This document shows positions 6,456-57,573 of a DNA stretch of 57,573 bases, piece by piece (position 1 is the first letter of the stretch; every line of letters begins with the position of its first letter). The stretch is from positions 1 through 57,573 of IMG/VR virus record IMGVR_UViG_3300004806_000028; one strand, 5' to 3'. This stretch comes from a virus. The notes beneath the pieces are model-generated. The model had not been told where the DNA came from, ran no database searches, and saw only the letters and a program-made list of their open reading frames with translations. Position numbers and translations under genes: made by a program.

Positions 6456-9038
6456 TTATTGACATTTACTATATCCACAATCCATGCAAGTATAGCAACC
6501 CGACATTCTGATTATATTACCTCCGCATGTTGGACATTTTTCTCCATCTACAACTGTTCCATCTTTAATATATTTCTTTAACGTTCTTGATAATACTTTA
6601 GAGAATGTGAACATATCCCCTGTAGTATTTTCTAATTGTTTTACTATATTACTAATTTCAACTCCATGCCGAAGTCCTATGGAAATCATTCGGGTAAGGG
6701 CATCCGCAGTGGGGTCATTATGCCCATTCGTTAATGAATATTCCTTATCTTCACTGATGAACACATATTTTCCTGTTCCGTGTTTTACCACTATTCCTGA
6801 TTTAACGGTTTTGGGGATGATTATATCCCCTTCGTGATTATGATTACTACCAGTGAAAACTTCATATAACATTCCGTCCATCAATCCAACAGCAACATAA
6901 TATCTATTCCCCTTAATGGTTATGTGGTGCATATCCGCATTAAGTCTTTTTCCTCTTTTTGGTGCGGTTGGTTTTGGTATTGAATTTGTGGTGTCTTCTC
7001 CGTTAGTAGTAGCAGCCAATACATTCGTCATGATACCTGCTCGATATGTTGTGATACCCTTTAATACTTTTGATTTATACGCATCTAAATATACATTTTT
7101 AAAATCTTCAAATTTATAATCTTTTGGTATATTTACAGTTTTGCTACAACTCGCATCTAACCATTTCCCCCAACCACGTAAATCTATTAAATGTTCTTCT
7201 ACTGTTAAATTTGATGTTGTAACCGCATAGTCAGCATTTTCGTTCCATTCTCCGGCGTTTTTGAGTATACTAACCCCATAATCTTCACATAAAGTTTCCT
7301 TGGTAAGCCCTCTATTTTTATCGATTTTATACACAGTTCCATCAGAATCTACTCCCCTAAGAATAGTATCCGATCCTTCTTTTACAAATTTGAACAATTC
7401 GGTTTCGATAAATTCACCCGTCCAATATTTCGGGCATACTTCTCGTATATGTTCTGGTAATACGTTAACGATAGATGTTCTAATATATGAGTGTAAGAAT
7501 AATGGCTCGATTCCACCAGTTATAATATTTGCTAATATCGAAGTGTTCCCATTAGGTTGGCAGGAAAATAGTGCAGAATTTCTAATTCCGTATTTTTTCA
7601 TTTTGTTTCTTAACTCTTGGTTTAAGTTAATCTGATCCCAAAAATATGCTTTCGCATGTTTTTCAGGTTCGCAATCTTTAAACATACCCTTTTCTTCTGC
7701 TAGATTAATAGATTCTTCAATACCCGCTTCAGTAAAGGCATGCATCAATTCTTCTTTTATTTTTTCCGCCTTTCCTGATGCAAATTTTGTTTTGAGTATA
7801 TATAAAGAAGACCCCCAACCCATAACTCCCAATCCTATTCTACGACGATTTGTTATAGAATCCATATATTGTGGTAGTGGTGCTGTAGTATATGAATTTA
7901 CATTATCTAAAAACCGAACGGCGATTTTTACAGATTTTTTAATTTTTTCTATATCAAACCCTGTTTTGGTTTTGTTTATAAATTGTGTTAAATTTATGGT
8001 TCCTAAATCACAACTTGAAAATTGTGGCATCGTTTGTTCAGAGCATGCATTAGTGCTAGAAATCCATGATCTTGTTCCTGCATAATTCCAGCAATGTGTT
8101 TTGTTTGCAACATCAAGAAATAATACTCCAGGTTCTGCCCTTTTATATGTAGAATTCATCACTAAATCCCATAATCCTTTAACAGAGATTGTTTTATACA
8201 CATTATATGGATATTGCTTTTCTTTCCATAATTTGAAATTCCCATCCCATTCTTCTTTATATTTTTCAAATGTGGTGTCGGGGAACCACAAGTCCCATTT
8301 GTCCATTTTGGTGATTTGGTTCTTTATATCCTCTGTTTGTTCAAGTTCTTCGAGCCTATTAATCTCAATGATCCTGTCCATATATTCATCGCTAAAATTT
8401 ACGGATAGGTTAAATTTTGTTAATCTTCCTTCAGTTTGTTTTGCTGTAATAAATTCTTCAATAGATGGATGAACACAATCCATTATACCCATTTGTGCGC
8501 CTTTTCTTATTTTTTTCTTAGCGTTTTTGTTATTCGCTTCTTCACCAGACCCCGCAGTAATAATTTCAGAACTTTTATCGAACATTTCCATGAATTTTAT
8601 TGGGCCAGGAGATTCAACTCCAATTCCTTTTATGAATGCTCCTCTTGGTCTAATAAAAGAATAATTGTCGCCATATCCCCCTTCGCTTTTTAATGTTTTT
8701 ACTTGATACCGAAGTGCTTCCATAATACCGTCTATAGAATCGCAATCGTAAGTAGCATGACCACCAGTAAAACAATTAATAAGTGACGTTCCTTTGAATT
8801 CGGTTCCTGCATTTGCTAATATCCTTCCTCCAGGAACAAATTTAAAATCTAGCAACAAATCATAAAATTTATCTTCCCAATATTTTTGTTTTTCTACATC
8901 TTCTACAGAAGCTATTGCATTTGCAACTCTTCGGAATGAATCATAAATTGTATTATCTTTATTTGCTTTATACGTATCTGCCCATATTTCACGAGAAAAA
9001 TCATTCGTGAACACATCTGTTGTTGATTTTGTTGACAT
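6456..9038 (-). CDS. nrdJ: Class II (adenosylcobalamin-dependent) ribonucleotide reductase
   Basis: This 860-residue enzyme reduces ribonucleotides to deoxyribonucleotides for phage DNA synthesis. Visible features: redox cysteine C89 in SLINCFTGG, the active-site NACSE (N330, C332, E334), the second redox cysteine C343 in SSCDLGTINL, a central QPNGNTS turn with ITGGIEPLF, a TSCPD-type domain around residues 700-820, and a C-terminal Cys-rich tail (CPTC at 835-838, then GCYTC-MDCGYSKC). The TSCPD domain and the GYSKC tail are typical of the B12-dependent NrdJ family. T4 itself has the class I pair NrdA/NrdB. The enzyme works without oxygen but needs host or environmental cobalamin. No intein is visible, although RNR genes are common intein sites. 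No clear sigma70 promoter was found in the 127 bases upstream. Confidence 0.93.
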   Translation of the reverse strand: MSTKSTTDVFTNDFSREIWADTYKANKDNTIYDSFRRVANAIASVEDVEKQKYWEDKFYDLLLDFKFVPGGRILANAGTEFKGTSLINCFTGGHATYDCDSIDGIMEALRYQVKTLKSEGGYGDNYSFIRPRGAFIKGIGVESPGPIKFMEMFDKSSEIITAGSGEEANNKNAKKKIRKGAQMGIMDCVHPSIEEFITAKQTEGRLTKFNLSVNFSDEYMDRIIEINRLEELEQTEDIKNQITKMDKWDLWFPDTTFEKYKEEWDGNFKLWKEKQYPYNVYKTISVKGLWDLVMNSTYKRAEPGVLFLDVANKTHCWNYAGTRSWISSTNACSEQTMPQFSSCDLGTINLTQFINKTKTGFDIEKIKKSVKIAVRFLDNVNSYTTAPLPQYMDSITNRRRIGLGVMGWGSSLYILKTKFASGKAEKIKEELMHAFTEAGIEESINLAEEKGMFKDCEPEKHAKAYFWDQINLNQELRNKMKKYGIRNSALFSCQPNGNTSILANIITGGIEPLFLHSYIRTSIVNVLPEHIREVCPKYWTGEFIETELFKFVKEGSDTILRGVDSDGTVYKIDKNRGLTKETLCEDYGVSILKNAGEWNENADYAVTTSNLTVEEHLIDLRGWGKWLDASCSKTVNIPKDYKFEDFKNVYLDAYKSKVLKGITTYRAGIMTNVLAATTNGEDTTNSIPKPTAPKRGKRLNADMHHITIKGNRYYVAVGLMDGMLYEVFTGSNHNHEGDIIIPKTVKSGIVVKHGTGKYVFISEDKEYSLTNGHNDPTADALTRMISIGLRHGVEISNIVKQLENTTGDMFTFSKVLSRTLKKYIKDGTVVDGEKCPTCGGNIIRMSGCYTCMDCGYSKCQ

Positions 9039-47134: not shown

Positions 47135-48589
47135 TTAGAGGTATACTGCCGTTTGTCCCGGTGTGAATGCAGTTCCCAAACCTTGGCATATTACCAAATG
47201 ATAATATAGATTTGCACCAAAGATATGATCAACAACACCATAACGTGTCATTAAACCAACTCTTGGAGAGAAGTCATTCGGTCCAACTGTGCGCTGAACC
47301 ATCACAGGAATATACGGACAATAAACGATTCCAGTATCATAATACTCAGGTCCTTTATAACCTAATAGAGCGTAATCGATTGCAGCACGACCTTGTGGGT
47401 GGTAACTAGCATTCTTACCAGGAGCACCATAAGGTGCTGTTCCCTGATTGATTTGAGCTTCTGTTCTTGTATCACGATAAATTTGGAATCTACCACCAAT
47501 AGAACCTACCTTAGCAATACCGACTGGTGTTGTGTTAACATTACCATTTACGGACTGCCAAGAAAAATTCTGTAGTGTTTCAAGAATAGCGCAGATACGA
47601 GGAGTTGCAATTATGAAATTTGCAGCACCACGGCGGTTGCGGATTGCGACTCTGTTAGCTTCAACAACAATTCTGTTGTAGAAGTCACGAGCACGTTCTC
47701 CAGACCAACGACCGTCAGCACTTGCAGCATTCCAAATGCTATATCCAATGTTAGCTCCAGCGTTCAAACAGACCTGAATCATTCTCATGATCATTTCTCT
47801 GTCGATTTCCGCTTGGATTTCATAGGACATCGCGTTTGTCAACTCGCTGTCGATATCAATACCATTCATGTTCTTCAAGTCTTGTTCGAGTTCGACAGAC
47901 CAACGAGCAGCTAACCTACGAGTTCCTGCTTCAACAGCAGTTTTCTCGAAAGATACAGTCATTTGAGGGATGTTTGAAGTTAATTCAAATTGGCTCAATA
48001 ACTGTGCAACACCAGTGTCTTCGACAGGGTTAACGAAATAAGTAGAATCACCTGTCAACGCCTGACTGGATGTACCAGTGAAAGCGGTGTTCAAGTAATT
48101 GTAACCTAATTCTGCTCCCTGACTAATGTTCTGTGCTCCACCTACAACGCTATTTGATAAGCTACCATCGGTAGACCCACCAGAATAACCAAGAGGAGAT
48201 GCTTCGTACTTGTAGCGCAAAGCAAAGGCAAGTCCGACTGGACCTGTCATTGGCTGCACACCCACGATCTCATTTGTGATGAGTTCGGGGAAAGTACGAC
48301 GAATCATTGGAATCAGAACTTTAGGTAAACGAGCATCGCCAGTAGCATAAGTGTCATTAGAGAACTGAGTTGCATTGCTGCCACCAGAACCGAAAACACC
48401 ACCTGCACCACTAGTATTACCCGCTTCGAAGCACCATTTCTCTTGGTTTTCAAGCAAGATAGCGGTGTTGAGTCTTGTATGATCGTCGGTAATAGCGGAA
48501 ACTTTGTCTGAAGTGTAATCCAATACTGGACTCCACTTTTCAACAAGTTGTTCTGCTCTCACTTTATCGATGTGTAGAAGATTTTCCAT
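47135..48589 (-). CDS. gp23: Major capsid protein gp23-like
   Basis: This 484-residue protein resembles T4 gp23 (521). Recognisable parts: RLPKVLIPMIRRTFPELITN, VGVQPMTGPVGLAFALRYKY, TVSFEKTAVEAGTRRLAARW with SVELEQDLKNMNGIDIDSEL, IRNRRGAANFIIATPRICAI and YKGPEYYDTGIVYCPYIPV. These are hallmark blocks of T4-type HK97-fold capsid proteins. The N-terminal ~60 residues would be removed by gp21 (an LLENQEKWCFEA site region). The gene is visibly richer in G+C than its neighbours, as expected for very high expression. No late-type motif lies just before its ATG; instead there is a purine-rich leader. The gp22 promoter upstream may serve it as well. Confidence 0.95.
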   Translation of the reverse strand: MENLLHIDKVRAEQLVEKWSPVLDYTSDKVSAITDDHTRLNTAILLENQEKWCFEAGNTSGAGGVFGSGGSNATQFSNDTYATGDARLPKVLIPMIRRTFPELITNEIVGVQPMTGPVGLAFALRYKYEASPLGYSGGSTDGSLSNSVVGGAQNISQGAELGYNYLNTAFTGTSSQALTGDSTYFVNPVEDTGVAQLLSQFELTSNIPQMTVSFEKTAVEAGTRRLAARWSVELEQDLKNMNGIDIDSELTNAMSYEIQAEIDREMIMRMIQVCLNAGANIGYSIWNAASADGRWSGERARDFYNRIVVEANRVAIRNRRGAANFIIATPRICAILETLQNFSWQSVNGNVNTTPVGIAKVGSIGGRFQIYRDTRTEAQINQGTAPYGAPGKNASYHPQGRAAIDYALLGYKGPEYYDTGIVYCPYIPVMVQRTVGPNDFSPRVGLMTRYGVVDHIFGANLYYHLVICQGLGTAFTPGQTAVYL

Positions 48590-49971: not shown

Positions 49972-49977
49972 TATTTA
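49972..49977 (-). promoter_or_regulatory. Late-type promoter core for the small core protein
   Basis: CATAAATAATAT on the minus strand; core ends 5 bases before the ATG at 49966 and overlaps the gp21 stop codon. Confidence 0.45.
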
Positions 49978-50649
49978 TGCTGCTTTAATTGCATTGATGA
50001 ATTTTAAAAGTTGTTCTTTTAAATATTCGTCGCGCATTTTATTTGGAATAGATTTTAAATTTTTATCTAAATTTTTATATGCATCCATTGAACATTCGAT
50101 AATAGAACCATCAGGACGTATTGCCCATTCTCTACTTTCCATTACTGATTCTAACATCGCATTTTGAACTGATGGTTGATGAACTACGTCTAAACAAATT
50201 AAACGGAAATTGGATACATTTTTTCCACCACTTGATTCTGCAATATGCCCTAATCCTCTAGTTGAAATACCAAGTTTGATTTTATCATGAATGAAACTTT
50301 CAAGTAATTTACCCATAGGAGAGGATAATACTTGTGATTTTCCCATAAAATAGTTTCCATTACGCTTTAACTCGACAACAACGTGACATGCATTAACTGG
50401 ATTTACTTCTGTGCTTTGTGGATGATTCATTTCTCCAATTGCTCTGCGAGATGAAATCATTTCTTTTGTATATCGATCCACTTCACTAACCATTTCATCA
50501 ATGTTGTAAATACGTCCATTACCATTTGGACTACCAGCCATCATGAAAGGACCAGTTATGAAAGTTTTTCTCTCACCAGTTTTATTTTGTTCTTCTACTA
50601 AGAAGTCAATATCTTCGTGAACGTCTTCTACTATGAATTTTAATCCCAT
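49975..50649 (-). CDS. gp21: Prohead core protease gp21-like
   Basis: This 224-residue serine protease is similar in length to T4 gp21 (212). The catalytic regions are visible: RRAIGEMNHPQSTEVNP (H76) and KIKLGISTRGLGHI (S129), the latter being the conserved G(I/V)SxR motif of herpes/T4-type prohead proteases. The enzyme is packed in the prohead core, activated after assembly, and cleaves gp22, gp23 and internal proteins at (L/I)xE sites. A perfect TATAAATA lies 5 bases before the ATG. Upstream on the other strand is a divergent lipoprotein gene. Confidence 0.92.
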   Translation of the reverse strand: MGLKFIVEDVHEDIDFLVEEQNKTGERKTFITGPFMMAGSPNGNGRIYNIDEMVSEVDRYTKEMISSRRAIGEMNHPQSTEVNPVNACHVVVELKRNGNYFMGKSQVLSSPMGKLLESFIHDKIKLGISTRGLGHIAESSGGKNVSNFRLICLDVVHQPSVQNAMLESVMESREWAIRPDGSIIECSMDAYKNLDKNLKSIPNKMRDEYLKEQLLKFINAIKAA

Positions 50650-51274: not shown

Positions 51275-52138
51275 TCATCCGAGAAAAAATAAGGGGGGTA
51301 AATTGTCCTGATAAGAGTTCATTAATTCTTTTTCGAGTGCATCTTTTTCGAGAAATCCTTGTGCTAATATAGAAGTGCTAATAGTTCCTCCACCGAATAA
51401 GGTGGTCCCGGAAAATTTCTCACGTACGGCACCAACAGAAATACGACTTAAAGCCAAAGAATATTTTTGCACCCACAGTTCTCTTACTAAATCTCTAATA
51501 GGACGTTCTAAGTAGCATCCAACAAGTCCTAAATATGATTCTGTTGGTATTGGTTCAGGAATAATTCGCAATATTTGTGTTCTATTATCGAATCTAAAGT
51601 GTGGGGTTTGTGCTAATACTCTTTTTCTAGTATCAATCCATCCTTTTAATACTTGCCAACTTGTAAGATCAAATCCGAAGTTGCCAATCATATAGGAAGA
51701 ATAAATTTGTTGTGCCATTGCTTGTTCCATTGAGAAAAGTGTGTTAATACCAGTAGATTCCCCCATATCAAATGAAAAACAATCAACAACCTTTCGATAA
51801 ACATTCAAATCATAATCAAAGCCTGTAGAAAGTCCTGAAACCATACTACTATACATTTCTGGTGTTTGATTTATTAGTGTTGCAATATCAATACCCACCC
51901 CACTAACATATTTCTTGGTATCAAACACTAAGAATTCTTCAGTATATCCAGCCCATTTAGTAAAATATTCGATAGCATTTGAAATATTATCAAATAATTG
52001 TTCATTCGATATTTCAATGTTGATTAGTGGATATCCTAATTGATGTTTAATACGTAAAGCTAGATCATCATAACACGAAATGCTTGTATTTAGTGATGTT
52101 CCTCCACGAAATCCTGAACCTGACGGTAAAACTGCCAT
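51275..52138 (-). CDS. Neck protein gp13-like (head completion)
   Basis: This 287-residue protein is close to T4 gp13 (309). The N-terminal half has RIKHQLGYPLINIEISNEQL and FDNISNAIEYFTKWAGYTEE, similar to the helix-rich start of gp13-type proteins; the second half has LTSWQVLKGWIDTRKRVLAQ, FRFDNRTQILRIIPEPIPTE and ELWVQKYSLALSRISVGAVR. In T4, gp13 and gp14 form the neck to which the tail docks. Here the gp14-like gene is far away (23072). It starts 17 bases after the portal stop and has a TTAAATAATA motif 6 bases before the ATG. The name is based on motif pattern and position; other virion roles are possible. Confidence 0.5.
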   Translation of the reverse strand: MAVLPSGSGFRGGTSLNTSISCYDDLALRIKHQLGYPLINIEISNEQLFDNISNAIEYFTKWAGYTEEFLVFDTKKYVSGVGIDIATLINQTPEMYSSMVSGLSTGFDYDLNVYRKVVDCFSFDMGESTGINTLFSMEQAMAQQIYSSYMIGNFGFDLTSWQVLKGWIDTRKRVLAQTPHFRFDNRTQILRIIPEPIPTESYLGLVGCYLERPIRDLVRELWVQKYSLALSRISVGAVREKFSGTTLFGGGTISTSILAQGFLEKDALEKELMNSYQDNLPPLFFLG

Positions 52139-52155: not shown

Positions 52156-54498
52156 TTATGCTGTAGGAGTTGCGGGTGGGGTTTCCGGCGTTTCTGTAGC
52201 CTCTGGTGCTGTTCCTACTTCTGGTGCTACATCTCCTGATCCAAATTCAGGTGGTGTTTCTGATGCTCCTGCTTCTGGTGGTATTTCTCCTCCTGATGCG
52301 CCTCCTCCTCCACCCATTCCACCTTCAGAACCTCCTGCTGGTGTTGCTTGTCCTGCTGCTGCCGCAATTTGTTCTCTGAAATTTGAACCACTTGCCTTAA
52401 TTTGTGTCAATTCCCATTCTAATGCAGCATCTTTTCTTAACCATTCTCTATTTTCCTGCATCTGTTCATCCGTTAATCCCAAATAATACTTTTGTGCATA
52501 AGAAGGTGCCATTGATTGGTTCTGTGTTGCGGTTCCAAAGTTTTCAAATTTAAGTTTTAAGAGTTCTTGTTCTCTCATTGCCATGAAAGAAGTTGGAACG
52601 TTCATTTCTACATTAATTGCACGTTCACGAAGCTTTAATTCTTTCCAAAGTTTCTTTAATTTTAAGTGAACTATGAAAGAATCACGAATACTAGTAGCAA
52701 ATTGTCTCTGTATACGAATAATATACCGCGCAAAACGTAATTCCTCTCTAGTTATTTCTGTACCATCCGTGAATTTTGCTGCGCCACCTGCATCAGTAAT
52801 AAAACGATTAGCAGGAACCTTCATTGCTTTATATAGTTTTTTAAGGAAATAATTTAGATCATCAAGCTGACCCAAATTACTATTATAAGTGAATACCCCA
52901 CAATCTGTCGCAAAAGTGTGATAGTTATGGTATTCTTCTTCTTTATCAATAGTTAGGGTTCCAACTTCAATATGATTATCTAAGTATTTTACAGATATTA
53001 AGCATCGATTGTTATTCGTGGGTTCTTCTTTAGTATAGAACGGAATCATACTTTCACCAATTATCAAATCTTTAGCTTCAACTTTCCCTTTTCCTAAAAT
53101 TGGGAATTTATGATCAGGGGTAACAATTAATGTTTTTCCATTATCAAAAGTCAATTCCATAACTTTTGCAGATTTTTGTGTTATACCAGCCCATGAAATT
53201 AATCCAGGAACTATTTCTCCATTATCTGGATTTGTGCTATATACCCAATTCTGTTTTCCTTCATTGTATTCTTTTGTTAGTTCGGTTAATGTTAATGTTC
53301 TGCCATCTAATAATGGAATTTTTGTATCCATTGCTAAACATCCACCAGGTAACGTAGTTACATCAGTTCCATTACCTTGTGCATCTTTTGGGAACCAATA
53401 AGAATCCAACATACTCTGTGGATCGTATACATTAGTTACTCGTCCTCCACCCGGTCCCGTTCCTCCATTTGTAGTATCGTAATTTTTTCTAGACCAATAC
53501 TGCTGCATGAGGCGTTTTAAATATGCTTCTGCCTTGGGTGCTGGCATATTTCCTGTAAAAACTTTGAATACTAAACGTTCAGGTGCTCTTACTAATCGAT
53601 ATATAACAATACTATCTTCTATTAATGATAATTGTCTATAAGCTCGTTTTGCATTGTCTATATATGGCAAACGAATGGTTTTAAATTCGTTCCAAATACC
53701 GGAATGCACATAGGTAACTTGACTCTTTTGTAGAAACAACAATTCTTCTTTGTTTTGTTTGTTTATGCTATTTACTGGTTGGATTATTGGTTTGTTTAGT
53801 AAATATCCTTTTATTATTTCATTTTGTGTGTTTGCATATACAGGATTTATCAACTCACAAGGAATATTCACAACACCAACAATACCCAATTCAGGACGTT
53901 CTTCGTCTATAATATTTTCAAAGAATACTTCACCGTCAATTAAAAACTGTCTAAAATATTCCCATCCTGAATCTTCTAAATCGAAAATGTTTACGAATCT
54001 TTTAAATTCCTTCTCTACTTTTTCTTTTGCTTCTTGTGAGTATTCGCCTCTTAATTGGAAAGTTGCGATATTATCATTTTCGTCTTTTACAATACATTCG
54101 TCGCAAATTTCATCTAAACAATCCGACATTTCAGCATAAGAGGACATTCTTCGATAATCCATCAAACGATTTGTTTTATCTTTATCGACATTAGCGTAAA
54201 CAAAAGCTTGATAATCTTTATTTATTATTATATTACCAGAAGGATTACCAGCGAGATTTGGATCGTTTGGTTGTGATATAAAAATAGATTCATCGCCAAT
54301 TAAATCATCTCTTCTTGGTGTTACATCTCTAAAAATCTCATATTTTGGATTTTTTCTTACCATTGTATCAATAATCTGATATGCGTAAGGTAATTTAGAA
54401 ACAAATGCGCCTAATAGAGAAGTCTGTGGAAATCCCTGTGTTTGTGGGTATTGTCCTCCTGATGGTATTGCGGCGGGTGCGTAAGGTTTCTGTATCAT
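52156..54498 (-). CDS. gp20: Portal protein gp20-like, interrupted by an in-frame intein
   Basis: This is a 780-residue precursor: portal residues 1-386 and 540-780 flank a 153-residue intein (387-539), leaving a ~627-residue portal after splicing; T4 gp20 has 524. Portal hallmarks: YAEMSDCLDEICDECIVKDE, YFRQFLIDGEVFFENIIDEE, IYRLVRAPERLVFKVFTGNM and the post-intein DDLNYFLKKLYKAMKVPANR with GTEITREELRFARYIIRIQR. The last ~70 residues are Gly/Pro/Ala/Glu-rich and disordered. The portal dodecamer sits at the packaging vertex and nucleates the prohead. The intein site lies in the conserved PGG-NLGQLDD segment. A late-type motif lies 5 bases before the ATG. Confidence 0.93.
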   Translation of the reverse strand: MIQKPYAPAAIPSGGQYPQTQGFPQTSLLGAFVSKLPYAYQIIDTMVRKNPKYEIFRDVTPRRDDLIGDESIFISQPNDPNLAGNPSGNIIINKDYQAFVYANVDKDKTNRLMDYRRMSSYAEMSDCLDEICDECIVKDENDNIATFQLRGEYSQEAKEKVEKEFKRFVNIFDLEDSGWEYFRQFLIDGEVFFENIIDEERPELGIVGVVNIPCELINPVYANTQNEIIKGYLLNKPIIQPVNSINKQNKEELLFLQKSQVTYVHSGIWNEFKTIRLPYIDNAKRAYRQLSLIEDSIVIYRLVRAPERLVFKVFTGNMPAPKAEAYLKRLMQQYWSRKNYDTTNGGTGPGGGRVTNVYDPQSMLDSYWFPKDAQGNGTDVTTLPGGCLAMDTKIPLLDGRTLTLTELTKEYNEGKQNWVYSTNPDNGEIVPGLISWAGITQKSAKVMELTFDNGKTLIVTPDHKFPILGKGKVEAKDLIIGESMIPFYTKEEPTNNNRCLISVKYLDNHIEVGTLTIDKEEEYHNYHTFATDCGVFTYNSNLGQLDDLNYFLKKLYKAMKVPANRFITDAGGAAKFTDGTEITREELRFARYIIRIQRQFATSIRDSFIVHLKLKKLWKELKLRERAINVEMNVPTSFMAMREQELLKLKFENFGTATQNQSMAPSYAQKYYLGLTDEQMQENREWLRKDAALEWELTQIKASGSNFREQIAAAAGQATPAGGSEGGMGGGGGASGGEIPPEAGASETPPEFGSGDVAPEVGTAPEATETPETPPATPTA
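52882..53340 (-). mobile_element. Mini-intein in the portal gene (no endonuclease domain)
   Basis: In-frame 459-base insert coding 153 residues. It begins with Cys (CLAMDTKIPLLDGRTLTLTE, block A), has a TPDH block B (LIVTPDHKFPILGKGKVEAK), then DLIIGESMIPF, and a C-terminal splicing block YHNYHTFATDCGVFTYN ending in Asn, followed by Ser as the +1 residue. The penultimate residue is Tyr instead of the usual His. There is no LAGLIDADG or other endonuclease region between the blocks. The flanking exteins join as VTTLPGG / SNLGQLDD, a continuous portal sequence. Confidence 0.9.
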
Positions 54499-55434: not shown

Positions 55435-57573
55435 TTACGTTATTATCCAATTTGCACCATCAGACATTAGTTCCATCGAATTTTTGTTAGATATAATCCA
55501 ATACCCACTAGATTGTCCATCTATAGTTTGTGATGATGTCGTTAATATTGTAATGTTTCCAGTTCCAGAATTTTTGATTATATACACTTTACCTGCAATA
55601 CTCGTAGCTGATGGCAACGTAACACTAAATGAATTTGTTGTGCAATTTATTAGATAATCAGTAGATTGTATTCCATAATTTGCAGTTTGTGCTGTATATG
55701 CTAATGTTAATCCACCACTTGATGTCAAATATGTATTACTATCGACACTACCATCCGCTTTAAGGAATTGTGAAGCAGTTCCACCAGTTTTAGTTATACT
55801 TGCTGCGGATAACGCACCACTATTATTAATGTTTGCTAATATTGTTCCCGCATTGTTTCTAAATTGTAATAAATCCGCTGTTTGTCCTGATATAGAACTG
55901 ATAATCTGTCCGACTGTTGACGTTGTTATGGGATTTATTTGGAATTGTGCAGAAGGTGATTGTGCATTAATACCAACTAACGCATTGAATGTGAGAATTT
56001 GATTAACGGGGCTTACCGCCATAACACCAGTAATAATTGATGCTGATAGATTATCTGCTACAGTTTTTCTATTGTAATTAGCAACCGAATCAACAAATAA
56101 CATATTAGAACCAGTCCAAAAATACCCTGCTTGTGCGCCAAGTCCTATATTATTATTACCAAGACTGGTATATAATGATGTGTTCCCTAATGCTATATTG
56201 AAACCTCCACTAAGGTTTGAAAATAAACTTCCATTTCCCATAGATACATTAAAATTACCAACAGTATTTTTATTACTTGCACAATTACCAATTGATGTAT
56301 TATATCCTCCAGTAGTGTTGCTTTGTGATGAATATGCTCCTATAGATATATTATAGCTCCCATTATTTATTGGTGCAGAATATGCGCCTAAACATACATT
56401 ATCTCCACCTGTGGTAATACCATTTCCAGCAAAATACCCAAAACAAACATTATTATTTCCTGAAGTAATACTCGTTCCTGCTCCAGAACCAAAAGCATCA
56501 TTTTGTGTACCCATAGTAAGATGTTGTAATGCAGTATAACCAAATGCATTGTTTGATGCGCCTACAGGAAATAATACTTTTGTATGATATCCGCCAGCAG
56601 CGACTCCTATAAATGTACTATATCGTGTTGATGCACCAGTTCTTATTTCATTTATGGTATTTCCTAAACTATCTATAACCGATAAAATTGGATTGGATGG
56701 GGCTATTATTTGTTTTACGGATACAATAACAGTTCCAGAAAAATCGTTAGTTGGTATTATAATAAATGGTGATGTGGATGTTGATATATCTGCATATATA
56801 TTAGAAGATATTATGGTTGGATATGATAATCCACCAAAATTCATAGTTACTGATCCCGCTGTTCTATTTGAAATTGTTATATTTAATGTATAATATAAAG
56901 ATTTTACGGCGGATATATTACTTACTAATGAATCGATTGTTGCTGAAGATATATGAGAAAATCCAGTTGTGAAATTTCCAGTCCAATTTGCTGAAGTCCA
57001 TTGAGCAGTAGTCAACAATTCAGACCCCAATATCGGCGTTTCTGTAGCAGATGTTCCTATTATGGTTGTTGTTCCGTCTGCCTTGATTTTTTGCATTACT
57101 GAACCTGCACTATTTTGAAATTGTAATAAATCTGCTGTCTGTGATGTTGTCCCTTTAATTATACTCCCTACTGTTGACGCATTAGTAGTATTGAATGTTT
57201 GTTGTCCAGTCCAAATATTTGATCTGGTAAAATCCAAAGAAAGTGTTTGGTTTGTTGATAAATTACCACCACCCGATAGCCCATTTACCCCTGATATTGT
57301 TGTGGTATTTAAAATCCAATTCGCACTATTACTTTGAACGGTAGAGAAGGTATTATTATAATTAGAAGCACTTAGATTATAAGCAGTAGAATAAGCATAA
57401 CCAGTATTCCAGTTTGAAGAGACGCTTAAGAAAGACAAATCAGTAGCACTTAAATAAGCAGCACTATTAGAAACCAAATTTGTATAAGCACTATTCCAAT
57501 TTGCACTATTAGATTTTACTGTAGTTGTTGTATTATTCCAGTTACTGGATACACTTAAGAAAGACAAATCAGT
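55435..57573 (-). CDS. Large tail-fibre protein with YadA-like beta-roll (5'-truncated)
   Basis: At least 712 residues; the frame is open to the right edge, so the true start is outside the window. The N-terminal visible part (57318-57573) has repeats of LSFLSVSSNWN and SNSANW units. The middle (about 56080-56560) is a beta-roll of ~14-18-residue repeats with the pattern of YadA/trimeric-autotransporter heads (NNAFGYTALQHL, NNVCFGYFAGNG, YNISIGAYSSQS, FNIALGNTSLYT). Twice it carries SQTADLLQF with a short helix. The C-terminus (TLPSATSIAGKVYIIKNSGT, then SMELMSDGANWIIT) is a small beta domain common at the ends of phage fibres. It is expected to be a long trimeric receptor-binding fibre. Confidence 0.75.
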   Translation of the reverse strand, partial: TDLSFLSVSSNWNNTTTTVKSNSANWNSAYTNLVSNSAAYLSATDLSFLSVSSNWNTGYAYSTAYNLSASNYNNTFSTVQSNSANWILNTTTISGVNGLSGGGNLSTNQTLSLDFTRSNIWTGQQTFNTTNASTVGSIIKGTTSQTADLLQFQNSAGSVMQKIKADGTTTIIGTSATETPILGSELLTTAQWTSANWTGNFTTGFSHISSATIDSLVSNISAVKSLYYTLNITISNRTAGSVTMNFGGLSYPTIISSNIYADISTSTSPFIIIPTNDFSGTVIVSVKQIIAPSNPILSVIDSLGNTINEIRTGASTRYSTFIGVAAGGYHTKVLFPVGASNNAFGYTALQHLTMGTQNDAFGSGAGTSITSGNNNVCFGYFAGNGITTGGDNVCLGAYSAPINNGSYNISIGAYSSQSNTTGGYNTSIGNCASNKNTVGNFNVSMGNGSLFSNLSGGFNIALGNTSLYTSLGNNNIGLGAQAGYFWTGSNMLFVDSVANYNRKTVADNLSASIITGVMAVSPVNQILTFNALVGINAQSPSAQFQINPITTSTVGQIISSISGQTADLLQFRNNAGTILANINNSGALSAASITKTGGTASQFLKADGSVDSNTYLTSSGGLTLAYTAQTANYGIQSTDYLINCTTNSFSVTLPSATSIAGKVYIIKNSGTGNITILTTSSQTIDGQSSGYWIISNKNSMELMSDGANWIIT
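57318..57573 (-). repeat. N-terminal shaft repeats of the large fibre
   Basis: Direct repeats coding LSFLSVSSNWN...SNSANW. A 22-base stretch around AAGAAAGACAAATCAGT recurs near 57425 and at the window edge, about 125 bases apart; the array runs out of the window. Confidence 0.7.

Follow-up and report, generated by a model that had tools for sequence, protein, structure and literature searches.

A nuclease-less mini-intein in a gp20-type phage portal gene and its family of clustered portal inteins

The portal gene of an uncultured T4-like phage is interrupted in frame by an intein. The window analysed here is the whole of a 57,573-nt IMG/VR virus record; on its minus strand it carries a gp20-type portal gene (52156-54498, 780 aa) that contains a mini-intein of 153 aa (52882-53340). 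The identity of the insert as a real in-frame intein was confirmed, and the element is very probably a splicing-competent mini-intein of the class 1 HINT type, judged from its sequence and a structural model. Taken alone, this copy is a further phage mini-intein and little beyond that; it belongs to an intein family clustered at several sites of gp20-type portals, for which we found no earlier report in the open-access literature. Portal inteins are reported there from mycobacteriophages, and none was found for gp20-type portals.

Portal gene and anatomy of the intein

Profile searches assigned the interrupted open reading frame to Portal_T4/gp20 (E=5.9e-98) and to the PHROG portal family (PHROG 213, 2.3e-98). 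Its neighbours are a head-tail adaptor (51275-52138), a head maturation protease (49975-50649) and the Gp23 major capsid protein (47135-48589), and the neighbourhood is a T4-type head cluster. The window also encodes the large subunit of ribonucleotide reductase (RNR; 6456-9038), a common intein host in phages, here lacking an intein. A fibre-like ORF with NWNSAYTNLVSNSAAYLSATDLSFLSVSS repeats occupies positions 55435-57573; several contigs of the window phage stop inside it, and the repeats therefore probably break assembly.

The following features all lie on the minus strand. The N-extein (portal residues 1-386, 53341-54498) ends in TTLPGG, and the C-extein (52156-52881) runs from SNLGQLDD to the stop codon, both being delimited from the ORF and by comparison with homologues. 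Between them, translation gave the 153 residues CLAMDTK...CGVFTYN (landmarks CLAMDTKIPLLDGR...TPDHKF...YHTFATDCGVFTYN), which were characterised with domain profiles, a structure model and a fold search. With the aid of the family alignment, the first nucleophile, Cys1 (block A, codon at 53338-53340), was placed at the start of an in-frame HINT domain, as a class 1 intein requires. The block B motif TxxH is present as T74-P-D-H77 (residues 74-77, 53110-53121), block F contributes His141 (YHTF, 52918-52920), and block G ends with the penultimate Tyr152, in place of the usual class 1 His, and the terminal Asn153 (52882-52887). The second nucleophile, Ser+1 (codon AGT, 52879-52881), is the first residue of the C-extein, as seen from the sequence and from comparison with homologues. 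The original prediction had the coordinates, length and reading frame of the insert exactly right, and its reading of block A, the TPDH block B, the terminal Asn followed by Ser, the penultimate Tyr and the missing endonuclease was borne out in full.

The insert scored 41.4 bits with the N-terminal intein model TIGR01445 (NCBI; cut-off 24.5 bits) and 34.9 bits with Pfam Intein_splicing (PF14890), just below the curated cut-off of 35.8 bits. An AlphaFold2 model computed from an alignment of 22 family members reached a mean pLDDT of 94.7 and a pTM of 0.88, and a Foldseek search with this model gave 61 matching PDB chains (E<=0.001), of which the 50 listed are inteins or intein-like HINT domains. 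Searches of the 153 residues with domain profiles and for HNH and GIY-YIG nucleases gave no endonuclease domain. Lacking an internal HNH domain, the insert is not a homing (HNH) intein; it has a short linker (approximately residues 104-112, 53005-53031) at the position of the HNH domain in relatives, which is also the lowest-confidence part of the model, and it is thus a mini-intein. Assignment to class 3 (no nucleophile at residue 1, an internal Cys, WCT) was rejected because Cys1 is found in the window copy and in all 63 relatives. Bacterial intein-like (BIL) domains have variable secreted or toxin-type proteins on either side and frequently lack a +1 nucleophile; the host here is an essential conserved portal, Ser+1 is present and empty homologues exist, and this assignment was likewise rejected.

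Empty sites and the question of an artefact

A search of related phages for empty and occupied sites had been proposed as a check, and both were found. In a first scan, four contigs lacked the insert: L005 (86% identical), in which LQGG is directly followed by SNLG, and L006, L007 and L008. When an alignment of empty portals was used as the query, 22 contigs were returned: four belong to the window population, 17 cover the insertion site and have no insert, and the remaining one is truncated; the insert is thus seamlessly absent from homologous host proteins of the portal clade. At +1, the 17 empty contigs have Gly in eight cases, Gln in five, Ala in three and Ser in one (L005), and the 63 distinct occupied sites have Ser in 58, Thr in four and Cys in one, so that the intein sits only before a usable nucleophile. 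Among the 80 portals listed as nearest to the N-extein of another family member, 74 were readable and empty and six were not scored; occupancy is therefore low among the matches listed in that particular neighbourhood. The SNLG start of the C-extein and the portal downstream of it are conserved among homologues. The flanks were inspected for a co-conversion footprint: identity to L005 is only 43% over the 30 nt at the start of the right flank, compared with ~79% elsewhere, in a segment that also varies among empty portals. No meaningful junction repeats were found at the intein.

An assembly chimera or other artefact might be suspected of a metagenomic virus record that ends within repeats. 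The portal gene is, however, identical (0 differences over 2343 nt) in four IMG/VR contigs whose metagenome ids differ from the window's, and the insert is seamless relative to empty homologues; an artefactual origin is thus extremely improbable and was rejected. These four are a 128-kb IMG/VR contig (L003/G001, L097), whose first 20 kb were checked and match the portal end of the window without difference, and three others that match it in part. At least one of the four stems from the window's phage population, and identical contigs from one population provide no independent evidence of selection.

The portal intein family

A family profile was built from the window intein and the three inteins of contig L009. 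Scanning of viral contigs with this profile gave 169 relatives, and the best 80 loci all lie within gp20-type portal ORFs according to their flanks and alignment. The search used intein patterns only, so that nothing in it confined the best 80 of 169 to portals. One relative was found in the genome_contigs set, on a contig of a Bacteroidetes MAG and likewise in a portal. Across 50,697 phage records, the window intein matched RNR and other inteins weakly, in addition to one portal (LR756508.1).

For site mapping, the inteins were removed and the exteins were aligned with T4 gp20. The 63 distinct inteins from the best 80 of the 169 loci are inserted at T4-equivalent positions 316, 318, 328, 332, 337/338, 341, 353, 354 and 357; some neighbouring sites are possibly one site blurred by the alignment, and the count is therefore given as about ten. 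The sites span T4-equivalent residues 316-357 (clip end, inner clip loop and channel loop), and the window intein lies at 353^354 in the channel loop. Two of these loops face the DNA in T4, namely the inner clip loop (R338, K342) and the channel loop (350-359), the second of which narrows the channel to about 28 Å (PMC4493910). Three inteins each are present in the portals of L009 and of L037/L038, and two each in those of L063, L077, L085 and L087. The original prediction had considered portal genes a less usual intein site than polymerase, RNR or terminase genes; this stands for cultured phages, but in uncultured gp20-type phages the family is spread over the sites just listed.

Filling of the same site in diverse portals might suggest a structural insertion domain that acts within the virion portal. 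The position in the channel constriction loop, the sporadic presence, the conserved HINT catalytic residues and the recurrence of one family at about ten sites, with up to three copies per gene, argue against such a role, the probability of which is close to nil.

The catalytic residues are nearly invariant: Cys1, the block F His and a +1 Ser, Thr or Cys occur in 63 of 63 distinct inteins, and the terminal Asn in 62 (the end of L089 is uncertain). The penultimate His is absent from 62 of the 63, being replaced by Lys (42), Tyr (6), Cys (4), Phe (4), Met (3) or other residues (one each). A residue other than His at this position is a trait of the family, and Tyr152, first taken for a deviation of this copy, is no such thing. 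The same Tyr could be read as the mark of a degenerate or C-cleaving HINT domain that fails to ligate the exteins and leaves the portal split or with its insert. That reading is very unlikely given that the replacement is the family norm, that all nucleophiles are intact and that the SNLG residues and the downstream portal remain conserved.

By size, the 63 inteins comprise 33 mini (<=260 aa) and 30 long members (>=340 aa), at least 27 of the long ones carrying an HNH-type HH motif (e.g. VHHKNYNRYNNSPENL). Several loci deserve separate description. L009:1-3426 (= L042) holds inteins of 417 aa (with HNH), 157 aa and 149 aa at T4-equivalent 328, 341 and 353, the last being the site of the window intein. 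L037:1160-5155 and L038:4014-8009 hold inteins of 156, 254 and 346 aa at T4-equivalent 318, 328 and 353, with just 11 extein residues between the first two. L041:3462-7286 has a 519-aa intein at the window's site and a second, more distant HINT match near the portal N-terminus (~residue 103) that ends in IIHN. The 1500-aa portal ORF of L085:2772-7271 contains two HNH inteins, the first of which is the sole family member with a penultimate His and also has Cys at +1. The portal inteins of L056:1411-4361 and L055:2534-4517 show frame breaks within the HNH part, which in L056 lies as two halves in overlapping frames; the breaks may come from errors in sequencing, from decay of the nuclease or from the intein being split.

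Probable nuclease loss and mobility

A maximum-likelihood tree of 60 splicing domains placed the window copy in a supported clade of eight (98/91), five of them inteins of HNH size. Four members at the same site are HNH-bearing (L036, 470 aa; L039, 472 aa; L045, 389 aa; L047, 427 aa), and the clade also holds L019 (215 aa, same site) and two inteins at the neighbouring 318 site. Four HNH-bearing same-site inteins within its own supported clade make it most likely, by parsimony and with a weak nearest fork (86/36), that the window copy lost its nuclease and not that its relatives gained theirs. L019 retains in its linker a piece of HNH-flanking sequence (SQYHQIYQNNSRKWEFTHR) and is, by this remnant, a nuclease-decay intermediate. 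The loss of the intein's own homing enzyme, as proposed originally, is thus supported by its nearest same-site relatives. Over the whole tree, size class switches 17 times or more, and the site changes 14 times, against a minimum of 10 and a mean of 26 after shuffling, from which it follows that the inteins mostly keep their site and occasionally jump, and that the nuclease comes and goes often.

Homing by means of the HNH nuclease carried inside the intein would account for the spread of the family, and the window copy would descend from an HNH-bearing same-site intein that has since lost the nuclease. Without it, the copy would depend on vertical inheritance, or on a co-infecting HNH-bearing relative for any renewed homing. 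The further suggestion that mobility could be supplied in trans finds no support among the genes of the window phage: the family HNH profile gave no free-standing relative in the window, the 128-kb record, the 20-kb sister record or the record of an empty relative. No GIY-YIG nuclease was found in the window, 128-kb and 20-kb records. The HNH_3, GIY-YIG, HNH and family-HNH searches gave just one ORF (L096:561-887, in the 20-kb sister record), which encodes a 108-aa PF01844-type HNH protein ~9.6 kb upstream of the portal, beyond the window's end; it is of another HNH type, unrelated-looking to the family nuclease, and a trans-acting nuclease of the window phage was rejected as a candidate. An HNH-bearing same-site intein of a co-infecting phage is the likelier source of mobility. 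Both the empty-site L005 and the HNH-bearing same-site L047 were found in metagenome 3300025616, and donor and target can therefore share a habitat. A scan with the intein of L047 matched only L047 itself.

Predicted splicing and selection

Class 1 splicing via Cys1, Ser+1 and Asn153 with support from the block F His is the best reading of the sequence and the model, and is held with high confidence. Cys1 would take over the N-extein (N-S shift) and Ser+1 would accept it; Asn153 would then cyclise with the help of the block F His in place of the penultimate His, and the exteins would be joined as ...TLPGG-SNLGQ.... The twelve-subunit portal ring should need the spliced protein, since twelve 17-kDa inserts at the ~28 Å constriction would be expected to block DNA; splicing would accordingly have to precede DNA passage, to judge from the site. 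Precedents for the unusual penultimate residue come from mycobacteriophages, in which class 1 inteins often have Gly, Lys or Ser instead of His; one phage intein lacking this His was tested and splices, splicing became slower when Gly was replaced by His in one such mycobacteriophage intein, and the function of the penultimate His can pass to the block F His (PMC5050341).

The window population is without variation, and selection was therefore measured on sister mini-inteins instead of the window copy. The pairwise dN/dS of 14 same-site mini-inteins (L020-L046) had a median of 0.093 (0.05-0.21), compared with a median of 0.053 for the exteins of the same portals. Such low values indicate that mini-inteins without a nuclease have stayed intact across considerable divergence, which is what a portal dependent on splicing would predict. 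Together with the complete set of catalytic residues, the HINT model and the empty-site homologues, this purifying selection supports the original view that the mini-intein very probably still splices.

The persistence of nuclease-less copies as a clade (14 same-site minis, dN/dS 0.09) and their position in a DNA-contact loop needed for packaging would also suit an intein retained as a checkpoint, whose splicing is slow or depends on conditions, so that the portal matures only on a cue (temperature, redox or late infection). Purifying selection would, however, be expected on the intein of any essential gene, regulated or not, and close portals lack the intein (17 empty contigs). Splicing may have a regulatory role; retention of the intein for that purpose is quite improbable. 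The broader proposal, in which the DNA-contact loops of the portal are the hotspot of one diversifying, site-jumping intein family with nuclease-less copies kept as a splicing checkpoint that delays portal assembly or packaging, is rather unlikely as a whole.

Comparison with known inteins

Portal-gene inteins are known from six cluster C1 mycobacteriophages (PORT; PMC5050341) and likewise lie inside a phage portal gene. No mycobacteriophage is named among the 44 phage records (one of them unnamed) that contain a match to the window intein at E<=1, and a scan of four proteins of the mycobacteriophage ET08 record gave no intein or portal match. The unannotated record LR756508.1 of an uncultured huge phage (L011:2027-6188) contains a Portal_T4 gene with three inteins at T4-equivalent 251, 264 and 393, sites unlike those of the window family. 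The third (393) lies in the tunnel loop (374-398), has an HNH motif and a similar HHEDFDRYNNSPNNL motif, and scored 67 bits with the family profile; the first two have a penultimate His, unlike 62 of the 63 family inteins.

The best curated profile for the window intein was NCBIfam NF052663 (RtcB_rel_intein2; 1.2e-15), which was also the top curated profile for all 22 aligned mini-inteins, over its intein part; the profile describes another host protein, and the score is far under its whole-protein cut-off. The HINT fold is shared with NrdJ-1 (8UBS), Mtu RecA, Npu DnaE and DnaB (TM-score by query length ~0.73-0.83), which differ in their exteins and are only ~20% identical.

Significance

In uncultured T4-like phages, the gp20-type portal takes its place beside terminase, polymerase and RNR among the major intein hosts: about ten sites fall within 42 residues, and one gene can hold as many as three inteins. 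These sites lie in loops that touch DNA during packaging, and splicing would therefore have to finish before or while the dodecamer forms, which makes the timing of splicing in virion assembly testable. Portals split by inteins are hidden from gp20 marker-gene surveys. The compact inteins in which Lys or Tyr precedes the terminal Asn could also be of use in protein engineering.
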